DNA of 64,000 bases, from contig NZ_JACIFE010000002.1 in the NCBI RefSeq assembly GCF_014197255.1, positions 124,001-188,000 of the forward strand. The letters are read 5' to 3'. Under the pieces are notes generated by a model. The model made no database searches and was not told where the DNA came from. It was given only the letters and a program-made list of their open reading frames with translations. This stretch comes from Bartonella fuyuanensis (lineage in GTDB: Bacteria > Pseudomonadota > Alphaproteobacteria > Rhizobiales > Rhizobiaceae). Made by a program: the position numbers and the translations under genes. Below, one piece after another: positions 9,229-16,273 of this stretch (the stretch's first letter is position 1; each line of letters starts with the position of its first letter).

Positions 9229-9242
9229 GCGCCATATGGCGC
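9229..9242. promoter_or_regulatory. Perfect GCGCCATATGGCGC palindrome, possible terminator
   Basis: A 14-bp perfect palindrome lies about 100 bp past the stop of the leftward repressor gene. T-rich DNA follows on both strands, so it may terminate the repressor transcript, but the absence of a loop makes a protein-binding site equally possible. Confidence 0.45.
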
Positions 9243-9342
9243 GTTTCTATTTTTTGCAAATATAATTCTTTAAAAACAAAGTGTTATTACAATTTCTTCA
9301 TGTAAGGAGAAACGCGCCTGTATTTTTCATTTTAAAGGAACA

Positions 9343-9873
9343 TTACGCCGTATCTTGTGTAGCTTCTAGATGTACTCTTTTAGCTTCGATTTGACGCTTT
9401 AAATGAATCTTAAGAAGAGGAAAAGTCGCTTCGACTTCTTCCATATCGTTGATGTTTTGAACAAGCTCTTGCAGTTTTTTATAAAGTTCCGCCGCGAGTT
9501 CCGCTATATCTTCAGGGGGGAGTTTTATTTTTGCATCGCGATAGGTTGTATAAGCTATGCGACCGAGTTTTTTCATGAGTCCAGTAGGGATAGTTTGTGG
9601 TTTAAAACCTGCTGCTTTCGCTTTTGCCATGTCGCTAAACATTTCGCCTTCACCCGTAACAAGCCAATGAGGATTAATGTTATAGGCTGTATAATAAGCA
9701 TTAATTACTGATGATGGTGGCTCATGTGCCCCAATTTCATAATTGGCAAGGGTATTACGTTGTAAATTAAGGCGTTGCGCAAAAATACTCCGTTCTTCGT
9801 TTCCGAATATTCGTCTTATTTCACGCAACCGCTTTGCCAGTGGTGTTTTAGGTTCTACTTCCGGACGTGCCAA
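9343..9873 (-). CDS. Mu-like phage repressor, XRE-type helix-turn-helix
   Basis: The product is a 176-residue DNA-binding protein. Residues 8-55 form a cro/CI-like helix-turn-helix (PLAKRLREIR, then IFAQRLNLQRNTLANYEIG) followed by the NPHWLVTGEG box common in phage repressors. The remainder is helical and presumably mediates oligomerisation; there is no obvious LexA-type peptidase domain. It is divergent from the Ner gene, and the 33-bp palindrome between the two is the obvious operator. It most likely silences the early genes. The reading frame is intact, so the protein may still be made although the transposase is dead. Confidence 0.8.
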   Translation of the reverse strand: MARPEVEPKTPLAKRLREIRRIFGNEERSIFAQRLNLQRNTLANYEIGAHEPPSSVINAYYTAYNINPHWLVTGEGEMFSDMAKAKAAGFKPQTIPTGLMKKLGRIAYTTYRDAKIKLPPEDIAELAAELYKKLQELVQNINDMEEVEATFPLLKIHLKRQIEAKRVHLEATQDTA

Positions 9874-9889
9874 AAAAATTACCTCAACA

Positions 9890-9922
9890 CCAAATAAATT
9901 GTTTGCAAAACAATTTATTTGG
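9890..9922. promoter_or_regulatory. Perfect 33-bp inverted repeat, phage operator
   Basis: Arms CCAAATAAATTGTTT and AAACAATTTATTTGG (15 bp, no mismatch) flank GCA. The site begins 16 bp upstream of the leftward repressor start and lies about 100 bp before Ner. A promoter-like pair (TTGCAA at the dyad centre, TATACC 16 bp downstream) would fire toward Ner and be occluded by a bound dimer or tetramer. Operator function is inferred from symmetry and position. Confidence 0.78.
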
Positions 9923-10025
9923 TATATACCTATTATTACCGCCCGCTATTGAGGGCAGATATTCTACCATTAACCCCACAAAAAACGGATGGTTTGAGCA
10001 TCCGTTTAAAGCAGGAGCGAAACTT

Positions 10026-10319
10026 ATGACAACCACACAAAAATGGGATCGCCATAGTATTTTAGCTGAGCTACGCCGCCGTAACATGACCTTGGCGGAG
10101 CTCGCGAAAGCTTATCAACTATCGTCATCCAGTGTTCAACATATCTGGACACGGTCTAACGAGAAAGCCGAACGTGCTATTGCCGATTTTATCGGTTTGC
10201 CCGTCGAGCAAGTTTTTTACGACCGCTACCCCAAAAGTCGCCGTCGCATTTTTAAAGCAGCAAAACATGCCAATACAGATTCGGCAACACAGTCCGCATT
10301 GCGCGGTAATGCTGCTTGA
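10026..10319 (+). CDS. ner: Ner/Nlp-family phage regulator
   Basis: The product is a 97-residue basic DNA-binding protein. KWDRHSILAELRRRNMTLAELAKAY and the following SSSSVQHIW form the winged-helix-like helix-turn-helix of the Ner/SfsB (Nlp) family, with the conserved ERAIADFIGLPVEQVFYDRYP downstream. The ATG at 10026 is preceded by AGGAGCG at good spacing. In Mu, Ner shuts down the early and repressor promoters after induction. Here it is the first rightward gene after the operator, exactly as in Mu. Confidence 0.88.
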   Translation: MTTTQKWDRHSILAELRRRNMTLAELAKAYQLSSSSVQHIWTRSNEKAERAIADFIGLPVEQVFYDRYPKSRRRIFKAAKHANTDSATQSALRGNAA

Positions 10320-10530: not shown

Positions 10531-10912
10531 TTTATGGATGCCAGAGGCAAAAAGAGAAATTTTTAATCCTTATTCAGAAGCTGAGCGATTACAAATGATG
10601 CTTTCCTGTTCTTTAAAAGCAGTGAGTGGAGGCTTTCGACATATACCGATACGGTATATTATTGACCCCCCGCATGGCTTATTTGATGCGATATTAGCAC
10701 GGCAGATTGCTATTCATATTTTGCATTATCAATTTGAGGTGCCGCGGCGGCGTATTGTTGCCATGCAAGTACGGAAGCAGACTGCTATCTTTCTTGCTTT
10801 GCAAGTGATTAACCGGCGTTTGGAAGAACCCGTTTTTGCGAAAGCTTATCGAAGATGGGCGGGGCGTGCGATGGATTTATTCTTTAAAGAGATCAGAAAG
10901 GCGGCAGCGTGA
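10514..10912 (+). CDS. Phage early protein with possible DnaA domain IV-like segment
   Basis: The product has 132 residues and is rich in Arg. The ATG at 10514 follows GGGGGA; an ATG two codons earlier is less well placed. Residues 55-115 (ARQIAIHILHYQFEVP, then RRRIVAMQVRKQTAIFLALQV) recall the C-terminal DNA-binding domain of DnaA, in which a helix after F-x-V is followed by R-x-x-A-x-Y-L. The GRDH signature is not obvious, so this is only a suggestion. The stop overlaps the next start (TGATG), so the two are probably translated together. Its role in the phage is unknown. Confidence 0.6.
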   Translation: MVAAYNLWMPEAKREIFNPYSEAERLQMMLSCSLKAVSGGFRHIPIRYIIDPPHGLFDAILARQIAIHILHYQFEVPRRRIVAMQVRKQTAIFLALQVINRRLEEPVFAKAYRRWAGRAMDLFFKEIRKAAA

Positions 10913-11907
10913 TGGCACAGTTTCAAAAGCTTGCTCTTGATGTGATTGTGGTGCCGGAGCGTATACGCCCTGTAGATGATGAGCATGCCAAGGCACTTGC
11001 ACAATCAATAGTGCGGGAGGGATTGATGAATCCGATTACGGTGCGCCATACTCCCAATGCTAAGGAAGGCAATTATACGCTTATTGCTGGTGCGCATCGG
11101 CTTCGTGCTGCTGAGCTTTTGGGCTATAGTGACATTGATGCGGTTGTGGTGCAGGCTGATAAGGACAATGCCGCGCTTTTAGAAGTGGCTGAAAACCTGT
11201 TTCGCAATGAATTGTCAGTGATTGATCGTGCACTTTTTGTCCAGACTTACCGCGAATTGTGGGAAAAGAAGTATGGGGAAATTAAGGTTGGTGGGGACGG
11301 TAGTAATCAACATAAAGTCAAAAAAGAGCAATTGGGTAAAGTTTATCCTATTGCTCAAATCAGTGATAATGCCTCTTCAAATGACAATAAAATCGGGTGT
11401 GAAGGAGACAAAGTGGCAAAGGTGCAAGTTGCACCTTTGATCGGTGGTGATGCACATTTAAAGCAATTGGGCCAAGTTGACCCTATTGCTCAAATGGAGG
11501 GAGAAGATGGCAAGAGGAGAACTTTATCTTTTGCTAAACATGTGGCGGACCGCATTGGTTTTTCTCAAGATGTTGTAAAACGTCTTAACTGTATTGCCCA
11601 ACATTTACAGACGGAGTTGCGCTCTGTTTTGCGGGGGACAGCATTGGCGGATAATCAAGCGCAGTTGTTAAAATTAGCCAAGATGGAGCCGGTTGCGCAA
11701 CGGCGGGTGGCGATTGCGCTCCAACAGGTTGAGGGGGTTTTACGGCGGGCTGTTGATTTGGTCAATGGGGTTAATACGCCGCCGCAAATTAATGAACAGG
11801 AACGGATTTTTGCGCAGTTATTAGAGGTGTGGCAGAGAGCAGATGCGCAGACAAAGGCGCGGTTTTGTGATTATCTTGCAAGAGAACGAGGGGAGGTGCT
11901 GTCATGA
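10912..11907 (+). CDS. ParB/Spo0J-type protein of Mu-like prophage
   Basis: The product has 331 residues. Residues 5-105 are a ParB N-terminal domain with the phosphate-loop motif GAHRLRAAELLGY (canonical ParB has GERR or GxHR) and VAENLFRNELS, the box that in ParB proteins contacts partner molecules. A helix-turn-helix-like region (FAKHVADRIGFSQDVVKRL) follows around residue 210. The segment between them is unusual: L-G-K-V-Y-P-I-A-Q and L-G-Q-V-D-P-I-A-Q are encoded by two 33-bp DNA copies, and LAKMEPVAQ appears later. The ATG at 10912 is preferred over a GTG one codon earlier. ParB-like genes precede the transposase in some Mu-like phages; whether it segregates DNA or regulates is unknown. 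Confidence 0.82.
   Translation: MAQFQKLALDVIVVPERIRPVDDEHAKALAQSIVREGLMNPITVRHTPNAKEGNYTLIAGAHRLRAAELLGYSDIDAVVVQADKDNAALLEVAENLFRNELSVIDRALFVQTYRELWEKKYGEIKVGGDGSNQHKVKKEQLGKVYPIAQISDNASSNDNKIGCEGDKVAKVQVAPLIGGDAHLKQLGQVDPIAQMEGEDGKRRTLSFAKHVADRIGFSQDVVKRLNCIAQHLQTELRSVLRGTALADNQAQLLKLAKMEPVAQRRVAIALQQVEGVLRRAVDLVNGVNTPPQINEQERIFAQLLEVWQRADAQTKARFCDYLARERGEVLS
11328..11495 (+). repeat. Two 33-bp direct repeats inside the ParB-like gene
   Basis: Copies lie at 11328-11360 and 11463-11495, identical at 28 of 33 positions, beginning GCAATTGGG and ending CCTATTGCTCAAAT. They encode the duplicated LGxVxPIAQ peptide. The spacing is 135 bp, a multiple of three, so the frame is kept. Confidence 0.85.
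11417..11439. promoter_or_regulatory. Perfect 23-bp palindrome inside the ParB-like gene
   Basis: CAAAGGTGCAA and TTGCACCTTTG flank a single G without mismatch. The site sits between the two 33-bp repeats, in the linker of the ParB-like protein. Centromere sites of ParB proteins are palindromes of similar size and sometimes lie in or beside their parB gene, so it is a candidate binding site. The sequence is not the classic parS. Confidence 0.5.
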
Positions 11908-12362
11908 AGAGGCATGGTTGCGGGCAGCTTGATTTTTTCCAAAAGCCGGTTTTTCCCTGTCGTGAACCCGTTGCGCAGATTGATTTAGAGCGGTTTCGTT
12001 CTCGTATAAAGCGCGCTATGGCGCGGGCTTTGAGAGAATGCCGGTATGAGCGCAGTGAGATTGCAGAGCGCATGTCGCATTATTTAGGGATTGGGTGTTT
12101 AAGTAAGGCGAGTTTGGATGCTTATGTTGCAGAAAGTAAGCAGGTGGATATTTCTCTGCCGCGGTTTAAAGCCTTTGTGCGGGCGACAGAGGCATTTTGG
12201 CTCTGGGATGAGGTGGTGAGTGAAGATGGATTGTTGCTGTTGCAAGGAGATGAGGCGCGGTTAGCAGAAATTGCGCGGCTCCAGCAGGAACAGCGGGAGA
12301 TTGCGGTGCGCTTGAAAGTCATGCGTGCAACGCCGGTGCAAATTAAACGGGGGCAGTCATGA
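11904..12362 (+). CDS. Mu-like prophage early protein, unknown function
   Basis: The product has 152 residues, starts with an ATGA overlap on the ParB-like stop and itself overlaps the next gene by ATGA, so it belongs to one coupled operon. The middle (RSRIKRAMARALRECRYERSEIAERMSHYLG) is basic and helical and could bind DNA; the C-terminus (about residues 118-145) looks like a short coiled coil. Proteins of this length directly before the A gene occur in other Mu-like phages, but I do not recognise a named family. Confidence 0.68.
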   Translation: MKRHGCGQLDFFQKPVFPCREPVAQIDLERFRSRIKRAMARALRECRYERSEIAERMSHYLGIGCLSKASLDAYVAESKQVDISLPRFKAFVRATEAFWLWDEVVSEDGLLLLQGDEARLAEIARLQQEQREIAVRLKVMRATPVQIKRGQS

Positions 12363-12832
12363 AGGAATGGTTTACTATTGCTGAATTGGCTGAGGCGGCT
12401 TTGCCAGGGTTGCCTAAGAGTAAGGGTGGATTGCGTAAGATTTTGGCGACCACATGGCGTCATCAAAGTGGTTTGACATGTAAAGTTAAAGGGGTTTCTC
12501 GTCCTGTTGTGGAGGTTCACATTTCCTTATTACCGGAGGGGGCACGGACGGTATTGATAGTGCGCTGTGGTGGGGTGTGTGTTGCGCAACAAAGTCAAGG
12601 TGAGAAAAAAGCTGAGCAACGTGATCAAAAGACAAGTGTTTGGGAGCGTTATGAAGGGCTTTCCAAGGCACATAAAAGGCGATGTGAAGAGCGTTTGAAG
12701 GCACTTTGCTTTTGGGAAGATTTGCTCCATGCCGGTATGGGGGTGCATGATGCGGCAAGTTTGAGTGCTGTGCAATTTGGTGTGAGCCGGATGTCGCTTT
12801 TTAATTGGCGGCAGATGGTGGAGGGGGTATGA
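12359..12832 (+). pseudogene. MuA-type transposase, N-terminal part (separated by frameshift)
   Basis: These 157 codons encode the end-binding and enhancer-binding part of a MuA-like transposase. The Mu-type winged helix begins EWFTIAELAEAALPGLPKSK, and a second helix-turn-helix region ends SRMSLFNWRQMV. The frame then closes at a TGA (12830-12832) where homologues run on into the catalytic core. Continuing one frame over gives YERPD, an amber TAG at 12843, then LAALAP of the second half, so a frameshift plus a nonsense codon split the gene. The fragment could still be translated and bind ends. Confidence 0.8.
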
Positions 12833-12845
12833 GCGCCCTGATTAG

Positions 12846-14375
12846 TTGGCAGCGCTTGCACCTTGTTATGGTGAGGAGAATGTTTCGCAATTTGCGCCGT
12901 GTCATGAGGGGGCGTGGGAGGTTTTTTGTTCGGATTATTTGCGCTCCTCTAAACCTGCTTTTTCGGCGTGTTATCGGCGGATGGTTTCGGTGGCGCAGGA
13001 GCGTGGTTTTGAGCCCATTCCTTCTGAGCGGGCTTTGCGGCGTCGTTTTAAGGCGGAAGTTTCCAAAGCGGTTGTGGTTTTAGCGCGTGAGGGAGAAGAA
13101 AAGGCAAAAAAGCTTTATCCGGCACAATGGCGTGATCGCTCAAGCCTGCATGCACTGCAAGCAGTGAATATGGATGGACATAAGCTGGATGTTTTTGTGA
13201 ATGTTCCTTGGACAGAAAAGCCTGTGCGGCTTTATCTGATTGCCATTCAAGATCTTTATTCGGGCAAGATTTTATCGTGGCGCTTGTCGGATGCTGAGAC
13301 TTGGGAAATCGTGCGTTTGGTGATTGGGGATATGGTGGAAGCTTATGGAATACCGGAGCGGATGACCTTGGATAATGGGCGTGCCTTTACCAGCAAGTGG
13401 ATTTCTGGAGGTGTGCAAAATCGCTTTCATTTTAAGATTAAGCCGGATGATCCGCAAGGGCTTTTGACGAGTTTGGGTGTGCAATTGCAATGGACCACCC
13501 CTTATAGCGGACAGTCTAAACCGATTGAGCGGGCATGGCGTGATCTGGCAGAAGCGATTTCGAAACATCCCTTTTGTGCGGGGGCTTATACGGGCAATAA
13601 ACCGGATGCCAAGCCTGAAGATTATGGCAAGCGCGCGATAGGATTTGAAGCGTTTAAAGCTCATGTTGGTGCGCAAATTGTGGCGCATAATGCGCAAGCG
13701 GGGCGTAAGGCGGTTAATTGTGCGGGGCGCAGTTTTGATGAGACCTTTACTGAGAGCTTGCAAGCCGAGGGGACGATTATTCGGCAAGCAACGGCGGCAC
13801 AACGGGCTTTATGGCTTTTAACCTCTGAGGCATTGCGTGCGCAAAAGGGTACGGGCGAGATCCATTTTTATGGCAATCGTTATTGGGCGCGGGCGTTGAA
13901 TGAGCATGCGGGGCAAAAGGTGATTGTACGCTTTGATTCGGATAATTTGCATCAAGATTTACGGGTTTATGATTTGAACAATCGGTTGCTTTGTTTGGCA
14001 CCATGCCTTTGTGATGTGGGTTTTTATGACCAGCAGGCGGTGCGCTTGAATGGGCGTTTGCGTAAAGAATATGTGAAGGCTGTTAAAGCAGAAAAACAGC
14101 TAGCGGCAAAGCTTGCGCTTGATCACTTGGCTGATGTTTATGCCAAAGCTGCACCAAAGGAAGATGATTCAAAATCAAAGCCTCTCATCAAGCCAAAGGT
14201 TAGCTGCTTGGTTTTAAGCAATGTGGGGAATTTAGCTTTGAAAGCTAATAGTTGTGAAGATTTAGGGGATGATAAAGCTTTGGAGGCAGAAGAATTTAGT
14301 CAACATTTGCATAAAGCTTTAAAACGGCTTTCTGTTTCTGATAACGGGCGTGAAGTGGTTAAATTTCCACGATAA
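12846..14375 (+). pseudogene. MuA-type transposase, catalytic part (DDE recombinase)
   Basis: This 509-codon frame opens with a TTG and no ribosome binding site, right after an amber codon. It contains the RNase H-fold core: Asp (codon at 13173, in NMDGHKLD), Asp (13371, in TLDNGRAF) and Glu (13527, in SKPIERAWRD). The spacings of 66 and 52 residues agree with MuA D269-D336-E392. The Mu-type beta-barrel follows (HFYGNRYWARAL, KVIVRFDSDNL), and then the charged C-terminal region that would contact MuB and ClpX. All catalytic residues are present, but without the N-terminal part it cannot recognise ends. No MuB follows. Confidence 0.85.
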
Positions 14376-14888: not shown

Positions 14889-14973
14889 GAGTGTTCCTGT
14901 TATTTAACATTTATCCTTTTCTTTAGATTGGTATCGTGTTATGATACATAAAAGAACGAATAAAGGTGATTTG

Positions 14974-15255
14974 GTGATTGAATCTTTTGCGGATAAGCGG
15001 TGTAAAGATCTTTTAGAAGGCAATCCGCCCAGAGGCTTTTTTACCACTCTAGTACGCATAGCACAAAGAAAATTGTTTATGCTCGATAAAGCAGTTGATC
15101 TTAAAGATTTGCGCAGTACTCCGGGAAATTGTCTAGAGGCATTGAAAGGAGAGCGTAAAGGTCAATATTCTATTTGTATTAATGACCAGTTTCGTCTTTG
15201 TTTTGAATGGCGTACTAATGGCGCCTATGAAGTTGAAATCGTAGATTATCATTGA
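14974..15255 (+). CDS. higB: HigB/RelE-type toxin
   Basis: The product is a 93-residue mRNA interferase-like toxin of the HigB (killer protein) branch. Family landmarks are VIESFADKRCKDLLEG at the N-terminus, RKLFMLDKA, DLRSTPGN, the RKGQYSICINDQFRLCFEW block and the end VEIVDYH. The GTG start at 14974 is preceded by AAAGGTG and gives the usual family length; an in-frame ATG at 14941 would add eleven residues. The antitoxin gene follows after 16 bp, the reversed toxin-first order typical of hig loci. The toxin is expected to cleave ribosome-bound mRNA; that activity is family knowledge. Confidence 0.88.
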   Translation: MIESFADKRCKDLLEGNPPRGFFTTLVRIAQRKLFMLDKAVDLKDLRSTPGNCLEALKGERKGQYSICINDQFRLCFEWRTNGAYEVEIVDYH

Positions 15256-15271
15256 TCTGTAGGAGGTCGAG

Positions 15272-15568
15272 TTGAAAAATTATATAGCGATTCATCCCGG
15301 AGAAATTTTACGAGAGGAATATTTAAAAGAATATGCTCTGTCTGCTTATGCTCTTGCAAAAGCATTAAATGTTCCACGCACGAGAATAGAACGTATTGTT
15401 GCTGAGAACGGTCCAGTGACTCCCGATACAGCACTAAGATTAGCCTGTTTTTTTGATACTACTGCTGAATTTTGGCTTAACATGCAAGTTGCTTATGACG
15501 TTAGTATATTACAAATTGAAAAAGCAGACGAATTTGCCAAAATCAATAAATTTGAATGTAGGGTTTAA
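15272..15568 (+). CDS. higA: HigA-type antitoxin, XRE helix-turn-helix
   Basis: The product is a 98-residue antitoxin and autorepressor. The opening IHPGEILREEYL is characteristic of HigA (VapI family), followed by the helix-turn-helix (SAYALAKALNVPRTRIERIV) and TALRLACFFDTTAEFWLNMQ. It starts with TTG at 15272, six bases after a consensus AGGAGG, so the rare start is well supported. Together with higB it forms a two-gene operon. It should bind both the toxin and the operon promoter. Both frames are intact, so the pair may still work. Confidence 0.9.
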   Translation: MKNYIAIHPGEILREEYLKEYALSAYALAKALNVPRTRIERIVAENGPVTPDTALRLACFFDTTAEFWLNMQVAYDVSILQIEKADEFAKINKFECRV

Positions 15569-15626: not shown

Positions 15627-15926
15627 TTAATGGGGCTTTCTAAATAGGGCATAAGTTTGCAATGACGGTTTCATGCTGTGCGGTAGTTCTGAAGTTCCAA
15701 AACCTGTAAGAATTGCAGGAATCTTTGTAATATTCAGTATTTCATCTTGAAGTTTTAAAATCAAAACTTTTTCTACTACATTCATGATGTCAACCAGAGC
15801 ACTACAATTTTTATCATCTACATATTCACAATTTACAAACTGAAACAATGCTATCCACAAATCGCATAAGAAATAGGTGTCTATCTTTATTGGACACCTT
15901 CGTGAATTTTCTCTCTCAAACATGCC
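15627..15926 (-). CDS. Unrecognised small protein downstream of antirepressor fragment
   Basis: A 99-codon frame (ATG at 15926; the open frame extends upstream to 16004) overlaps the end of the antirepressor fragment by 40 bp. The product starts MFERENSRRC and ends with ILTGFGTSELPHSMKPS and YALFRKPH. No family is recognised. It could be the C-terminal piece of a larger phage protein. Its base composition is host-like and there is no strong ribosome binding site, so its reality is uncertain. Confidence 0.35.
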   Translation of the reverse strand, partial: GMFERENSRRCPIKIDTYFLCDLWIALFQFVNCEYVDDKNCSALVDIMNVVEKVLILKLQDEILNITKIPAILTGFGTSELPHSMKPSLQTYALFRKPH

Positions 15927-16273
15927 GATCCTTTGGATGTAATTTTCGTTGAATGGAGTACCTTTTCTGTACCATCTGGTCTTTGAATGGTAATAGCGGG
16001 ACAATCCATGAATCCTTTCTTAATTTTGTCCTGATAAGGTAACAATGGACCACTTGGAGCCCGTCGATATACCCAGTCATGTTTACGCAAGTAATTCGTT
16101 AAATCTTTTAGTCGCACCTCTAACATTTTTGCAACTTCGATGAGACCAAACAGACTATCAGAGCGCTTTAAATCTTCTAAAGCTCCAGCTTTTGGCGTCA
16201 ATTCGGCAATGGTGTTATCTTTCTGCTCGATTTGACTTTGTAGATGATTTAAGACGCCAAGCAACGCTTCCAT
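15887..16273 (-). pseudogene. Phage antirepressor, KilAC C-terminal domain only
   Basis: The 128 codons encode a short coiled-coil start (HLQSQIEQKDNTIAELTPKA) and then a clear KilA-C domain: LEDLKRSDSLFGLIEVAKML, LRKHDWVYRR, LLPYQDKIKKG and SKGSACLREKIHEG. Complete phage antirepressors carry an N-terminal Bro-N, Rha or KilA-N domain of 100 or more residues before this. Here the upstream frame hits a stop within about 30 codons and no such domain is found, so the gene is truncated. It is on the minus strand and unrelated to Mu, indicating debris of a second, lambdoid-type phage. Confidence 0.8.

Follow-up and report, generated by a model that had tools for sequence, protein, structure and literature searches.

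A perfect 35-bp dyad as the probable operator of an XRE-type repressor in a Bartonella Mu-like prophage remnant, with variable operators and tandem repressor arrays among its relatives

The window analysed here is a 64-kb stretch of Bartonella fuyuanensis DNA that contains a remnant of a Mu-like prophage. A perfect dyad at 9889-9923 is very probably the operator of the adjacent XRE-type c repressor, which would block the early promoter from this site, and the arms of the dyad would set the specificity of the switch. The dyad is assigned to the repressor because its letters co-vary with the helix-turn-helix (HTH) region of the repressor across relatives. As an element, the dyad is of an already known kind. 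What sets it apart is how widely the predicted specificity ranges on a single scaffold, together with the repressor arrays of related prophages.

The dyad has a total length of 35 bp and consists of the following parts.

9889 to 9904, no strand: left arm of the dyad (predicted operator half-site), a perfect 16-bp arm
9905 to 9907, no strand: dyad centre GCA, read from the sequence
9908 to 9923, no strand: right arm of the dyad (predicted operator half-site), a perfect 16-bp arm inside the spacer of the predicted early promoter

The initial annotation described a 33-bp dyad with 15-base arms around GCA. The dyad is real and perfect, and this description was slightly short by one base in each arm. 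It is the only perfect inverted repeat in the window with arms of at least 14 bp and a loop of at most 12. The chance level was estimated from 40 dinucleotide-Markov simulations of 64 kb each, which gave mean counts per simulated window of 1.375 repeats with arms of at least 10 bp, 0.3 with at least 11 and 0.05 with at least 12, and no longer ones; the statement that the dyad is far beyond chance is therefore well founded. Neither arm has a second copy with fewer than two mismatches in the window. With up to three mismatches, the arms are found as a single copy in the source genome and in one of 71 genus genomes, which is the source genome itself.

The genes around the dyad follow the order of a Mu-like transposable prophage early region: the repressor, which is divergent, then ner, an unknown protein, a ParB-like protein, a further regulator and a split MuA transposase. 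The main genes are as follows.

9343 to 9873, minus strand: c-type repressor of 176 aa, XRE/HTH_19, with a TTG start, identified by a profile hit and sequence relatives of solved structure
10026 to 10319, plus strand: Ner/Nlp regulator of 97 aa (PF13693, phrog_769)
10909 to 11907, plus strand: ParB-like early protein of the prophage, identified by a profile match
12359 to 14375, plus strand: MuA-type transposase, frame-broken, in two ORFs (12359-12832 and 12846-14375)

The XRE repressor and Ner border the dyad on its two sides, as the initial annotation had it, and its description of a dead transposase is borne out by the stops that lie within the MuA match. A tail-terminator fragment is also present, and the remnant is bordered by host genes for a TerC/CorC-type membrane protein and a homoserine dehydrogenase. 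MuA matches occur in 28 of the 71 genus genomes. Of the MuA matches listed for the genus, 34 run uninterrupted over the full length, and a different contig of the source genome carries one of these.

The N-terminal DNA-binding fold of the Mu c repressor is common to MuA. The repressor studied here matched HTH_19, and HTH_Tnp_Mu_1 matched the transposase only, which places the repressor outside the Mu c family. Its relatives of solved structure, judged by sequence, include the 434 repressor, P22 C2 and the ICEBs1 Xre regulator. The name "Mu repressor" given earlier is thus right for a repressor of a Mu-like prophage and wrong for its type, which is 434/P22-like XRE. Most relatives start with TTG and some with ATG or GTG, and the ribosome-binding site is kept. 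All 28 loci found in a repressor search of genome contigs are Bartonella. One scan of viral contigs with the repressor gave no relative. Among 297 genomes of the order, 12 match the repressor at E 1e-15, two of which are Bartonella, and side-by-side matches were found in none of the 10 others.

The comparison set comprised the window and 100 regions from genus genomes, among the matches listed, all scanned for repressor copies. Nearly all listed N-terminal matches of about 80 aa (E about 1e-17 to 1e-19; two were taken) were skipped, as was G068:C78, and copies whose match began beyond the first 8 residues were left unscored. Among the matches listed, 111 repressor copies had a placeable start; 98 were first in line and 13 lay directly behind another repressor match. 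Omission of 13 first-in-line copies with a frame below 160 aa or an odd start codon left 85 intact copies, and merging of identical ones left 80 distinct copies. HTH-segment and promoter analyses used 78 of these (L159 and L162 omitted), the analysis of a small second dyad used 75 distinct regions, and the Ner comparison used 43 loci with one full-length Ner.

Across the 80 distinct switch regions, the position of the dyad is kept and the letters of its arms vary. Among the matches listed, a dyad with 12 or more of 17 pairs lies immediately ahead of 49 of the 85 intact first-in-line copies, and in 40 of the 85 the dyad score is reached by no more than two of 200 shuffles. None of the 13 downstream tandem copies among the matches listed has an upstream dyad of at least 12 of 17 pairs. 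The centre of the dyads with at least 12 pairs lies about 30-35 bases ahead of the start codon. The initial annotation had proposed a search of related prophages for the same arms; they are absent, within three mismatches, from the 70 other genus genomes, and the 49 copies carry another dyad at the same spot, which is what would be expected of an immunity-specific operator. The remaining 36 intact copies among the matches listed form fewer than 12 of 17 pairs, and long perfect dyads are therefore not the norm. Most members of classes C, D and F have 9-11 pairs, and the half-sites of the low-scoring copies look shorter or wider apart.

The variation of the arms follows the DNA-binding part of the repressor. 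In Mantel tests, which remove shared ancestry only partly, operator distance correlated with the distance of the repressor N-domain (r 0.75, P 0.001; 0.73 given the C-domain; n=80). The corresponding values were 0.02 (P 0.39) for the C-domain given the N-domain and 0.06 (P 0.14) for flanking DNA (n=80). The best segment was HTH residues 30-50, which comprise helix 2, the turn and helix 3 (r 0.78; 0.65 given the DNA of codons 1-12; n=78). The letters of the site thus co-vary with the recognition region, as for an operator of an XRE repressor. In 34 distinct dyads, which were selected for at least 12 pairs, two or more kinds of Watson-Crick pair occur at every position between the 5th and the 17th, both included.

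The 80 distinct copies fall into nine N-domain clusters: A with 7 members, B with 9, C with 9, D with 8, E with 25, F with 11, G with 9, and two single outliers. From these sequences, at least seven immunity specificities are predicted on one scaffold in one genus. In class A, the operators can be sorted by the residue that follows QR in the recognition region of the repressor: N goes with the centre TTGCAA (the window, L065 and L069), G with ATCAAATATTT-type arms (L066 and L067) and T with GCCAAATAT-type arms (L070 and L072). Class B provides a counter-example, since residues 30-50 of L080 are identical to those of L076, yet its operator is unlike that of L076 and resembles that of L068. With about 80 naturally matched repressor-operator pairs that share a scaffold, and at least seven specificities predicted within a single genus, the rules of HTH-operator recognition and of the change of immunity group become directly testable. 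Genomes did not significantly avoid sharing a class, as 8 of 73 within-genome pairs share one against 12.05 expected (P 0.116). In four of these eight (L072/L073, L117/L118, L122/L123 and L138/L139), which were kept in the test, the two members agree fully in upstream stretch and N-domain and may be products of transposition or of the assembly. Double modules with two repressor switch regions about 0.9-1.2 kb apart are present in L088, L104, L114, L119, L125 and L133, and HTH class differs within all six.

The dyad overlaps the lytic promoter predicted from the relatives.

9902 to 9907, plus strand: predicted -35 of the early (ner) promoter, TTTGCA, in the register of the relatives
9925 to 9930, plus strand: predicted -10 of the early promoter, TATACC, in the register of the relatives

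For 54 of 78 regions, among them the window, the highest-scoring rightward match combines a 17-bp spacer with a -35 located 23-30 bases ahead of the repressor start. The -35 of relatives lies at or beside the dyad centre and is often TTGACT, TTGACA or TTTACA, and the -10 lies just outside the arm and is often TATATC or TATACC. Best rightward scores of at least 9 of 12 occur in 50 of 78 regions vs about 28% of shuffles. No leftward promoter for the repressor stands out, with 20 of 78 regions scoring at least 9 vs about 27% of shuffles. A TTGCAA/TATACC pair had been noticed at the outset, and it can be read as TTGCAA with a 16-bp spacer or as TTTGCA with a 17-bp spacer; the relatives favour the latter register. 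The promoter is predicted from the relatives only and is weak in the window itself, where each hexamer matches the consensus at 4 of 6 positions, the score of 8 of 12 is at shuffle level, and the pair is absent from the output of a generic promoter scan.

A repressor dimer, or a pair of dimers, would bind both arms of the dyad. Once bound, the repressor would occupy the -35 at the dyad centre as well as the right arm, which makes up most of the 17-bp spacer. This would block the early promoter, from which ner and the transposition genes are expressed, and may also adjust leftward expression of the repressor gene itself. In related Bartonella prophages, changes of the arms go together with changes of the repressor HTH, which would give rise to distinct immunity specificities.

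The dyad lies upstream of ner, and in phage Mu, Ner binds between two divergent promoters. It could therefore be a binding site of Ner and not of the repressor, and we consider this extremely unlikely. At 43 loci, the correlation of operator divergence with Ner divergence is r 0.00, vs 0.756 with the repressor N-domain, so the proposal of a genetic switch at this place is strongly supported for the repressor and finds no support for Ner. Ner also varies less at these loci (mean identity 0.87, range 0.39-1.00, vs a mean of 0.57 for the repressor N-domain). A separate small dyad nearby fits Ner better.

9939 to 9944, no strand: left half of the small second dyad, CCGCCC, a candidate Ner site by its sequence
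9953 to 9958, no strand: right half of the small second dyad, GGGCAG, a candidate Ner site by its sequence

The small dyad has 6-bp halves and an 8-bp spacer, and five or six of its six pairs are present in 55 of 75 distinct regions vs about 17% of shuffles, with any offset counted. Judged by sequence, the dyad at 9939-9958 is the better candidate for a Ner site than the one at 9889-9923.

The perfect stem spans 16-50 nt ahead of the repressor start codon and would be transcribed if the repressor promoter lies to the right of the dyad. That the dyad acts as an RNA hairpin in the repressor mRNA 5' leader, with a role in translation control, processing or termination, is nevertheless very improbable, because such a role does not predict the co-variation of the arms with the repressor HTH, and the stems are weak in several classes. 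In the 34 distinct dyads selected for at least 12 pairs, G-T cells make up 17 of 109 non-Watson-Crick cells (0.156), somewhat above the composition expectation of 0.106, but A-C cells (34) are twice as frequent as G-T cells (17) on the same strand, which gives no clear sign of a wobble preference on the mRNA strand. Recombination that moves neighbours together could make the co-evolution of dyad and N-domain only apparent, since the two are adjacent and the DNA of codons 1-12, which is nearer to the operator than the HTH is, likewise shows a correlation with it (r 0.56, n=78). We give this little credence. The correlation with codons 1-12 falls to 0.06 given the HTH (P 0.075), but the HTH keeps 0.65 in the reverse comparison. 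Furthermore, the match between downstream tandem copies and first-in-line relatives sets in at about the start codon, and thus joints that separate operator from HTH seem to arise.

An operator bound by the adjacent repressor, which we prefer, has counterparts in known systems. The same layout with other letters is present in Ochrobactrum POA1180, Rhodobacter RcWaterboi and RcapMu (0 of 100 shuffles each). Sinorhizobium Aussie and Rhizobium RR1-B show it less strongly (2 and 3 of 100, respectively), and Sinorhizobium StopSmel has no dyad above shuffles (48 of 100). POA1180, RcapMu and RcWaterboi share with the window a divergent repressor and ner-like gene, a related repressor and a dyad at the same place, theirs with a GTAAA centre. 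They differ in arm letters, and repressor identity is 34-46% over the matched part. Unlike in some Bartonella relatives, no tandem repressor is annotated in the examined stretches of these three phages. In coliphages Mu and D108, the repressor and Ner are divergent around the early promoter, and heteroimmune relatives have altered operators. The Mu c operator is a multi-site one that doubles as the transposition enhancer, in contrast to the one compact dyad of a 434/P22-like XRE repressor here.

In the Pseudomonas D3112/MP22 group, sequence variation of the repressor and Ner is taken as a marker of immunity group, and the main text on these Mu-like phages makes no mention of an operator, palindrome or inverted repeat (PMC4378225). 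In Cluster A mycobacteriophages, repressor distances vary with the distances of binding-site motifs, leading to homo- or heteroimmunity; their stoperators are 20-30 asymmetric sites per genome, vs one symmetric dyad here (PMC6550527). Gifsy-1 and Gifsy-3 of Salmonella have heteroimmune repressors and different operators with a common antirepressor, an arrangement comparable to the conserved C-domain and variable HTH here; tandem repressors are not mentioned in the main text of that paper (PMC3121763).

Several relatives carry arrays of two to four repressor genes, mostly of different HTH classes, behind one operator (L079, L064, L068, L070, L071, L074, L077, L084 and L099). The longest, L079 (G038:C2:214082-216241), has four consecutive repressors, which belong to classes F, D, B and A. 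Among the matches listed, 12 of the 13 downstream copies have their first repressor in the region, and 11 of these 12 belong to another HTH class than the first; randomly drawn classes also usually differ, so the class difference excludes simple self-duplication and is by itself no proof of selection for diversity. The twelfth, in L074, has class B twice, and the recognition regions differ. The downstream repressor of L071 has an N-domain whose identity to the one of L067 is 1.00. Compared with their nearest first-in-line relatives, the 13 downstream copies show dN/dS of 0.09-0.44, two of them over 110 codons only. Two copies, the second in L070 and the final one in L079, extend into assembly gaps (N). 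The usual phage flank returns after the last copy of regular arrays.

In all listed arrays but L064, the genes are separated by a conserved linker of 78-90 bases that ends in a ribosome-binding-site-like GGAG. A 72-base linker query gave ten strong matches (E 5e-19 or better) in six of 71 genomes, all ten between tandem repressor genes, and twelve weak partial matches (E 1.5e-4 to 0.009) in ten other genomes. The source genome has a repressor pair of classes E and F, without the 72-base linker, that adjoins an intact transposase. The downstream copies of L116 and L121 have odd start codons and no linker, and they look like fused remnants rather than array members.

Downstream repressors, which have no separate operators, would be transcribed from the promoter of the first repressor. 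Stacked repressors would give the lysogen simultaneous immunity to several heteroimmune relatives, and the C-terminal domain that these repressors have in common could allow their joint inactivation. With somewhat less than even confidence, we propose from these sequences that the arrays form an expandable immunity locus, in which an operator-matched first repressor is followed by one to three others that stack immunities, the shared C-domain serves as a joint off-switch, and isolated remnants such as L002 represent an end state kept by the host. If tandem repressors act as predicted, a prophage stacks the immunities of its competitors in one operon, and the genome-based reading of superinfection immunity and polylysogeny would change. 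In the PMC literature, which covers few subscription journals, neither titles nor opening lines of abstracts among the search results pointed to work on the repressors of Bartonella Mu-like prophages, on the operators of these repressors or on repressor arrays.

At L002:5906-6992, an orphan repressor with its operator and about 1.1 kb of a prophage end lies beside tRNA-Gly. The 12.5-kb L002 locus has no good match to ner, ParB or a tail gene and no MuA match. The orphan repressor and operator may be an end state in which the immunity gene is kept by the host, and the window may be an earlier stage of similar decay. The window repressor and the L065 orphan, which is at the same place as L002, show a dN/dS of 0.13, and their divergence may predate decay. 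An intact repressor accompanies a broken or partial MuA in the window, L078, L082, L092 and L097, and the repressor is broken in L145, L146, L148, L149 and L152. Since both kinds of locus occur, the switch of the remnant may reflect recent decay or retention, with neither favoured.

A hairpin lies between ner and the operator.

9983 to 10007, minus strand: 9-bp hairpin (arms 9983-9991/9999-10007) followed by Ts, terminator-like toward the repressor, read from the sequence

This hairpin recurs in many relatives and was not listed by a generic scan. It may shield the repressor gene against leftward read-through. Behind the repressor, an inverted repeat GGCGCGTTTCT/AGAAACGCGCC is located at 9238-9248 and 9308-9318, with a 92% copy on C18 of the source genome. 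Relatives have alternative repeats at the place of GGCGCGTTTCT/AGAAACGCGCC, for example GTGGAAATCT/AGATTTCCAC, and on this ground the site may be a second variable dyad near the prophage end. The remnant also contains a HigB-like toxin and HTH antitoxin-like gene pair at 14941-15568 and, on its right side, a KilAC-type phage antirepressor piece at 15887-16273.
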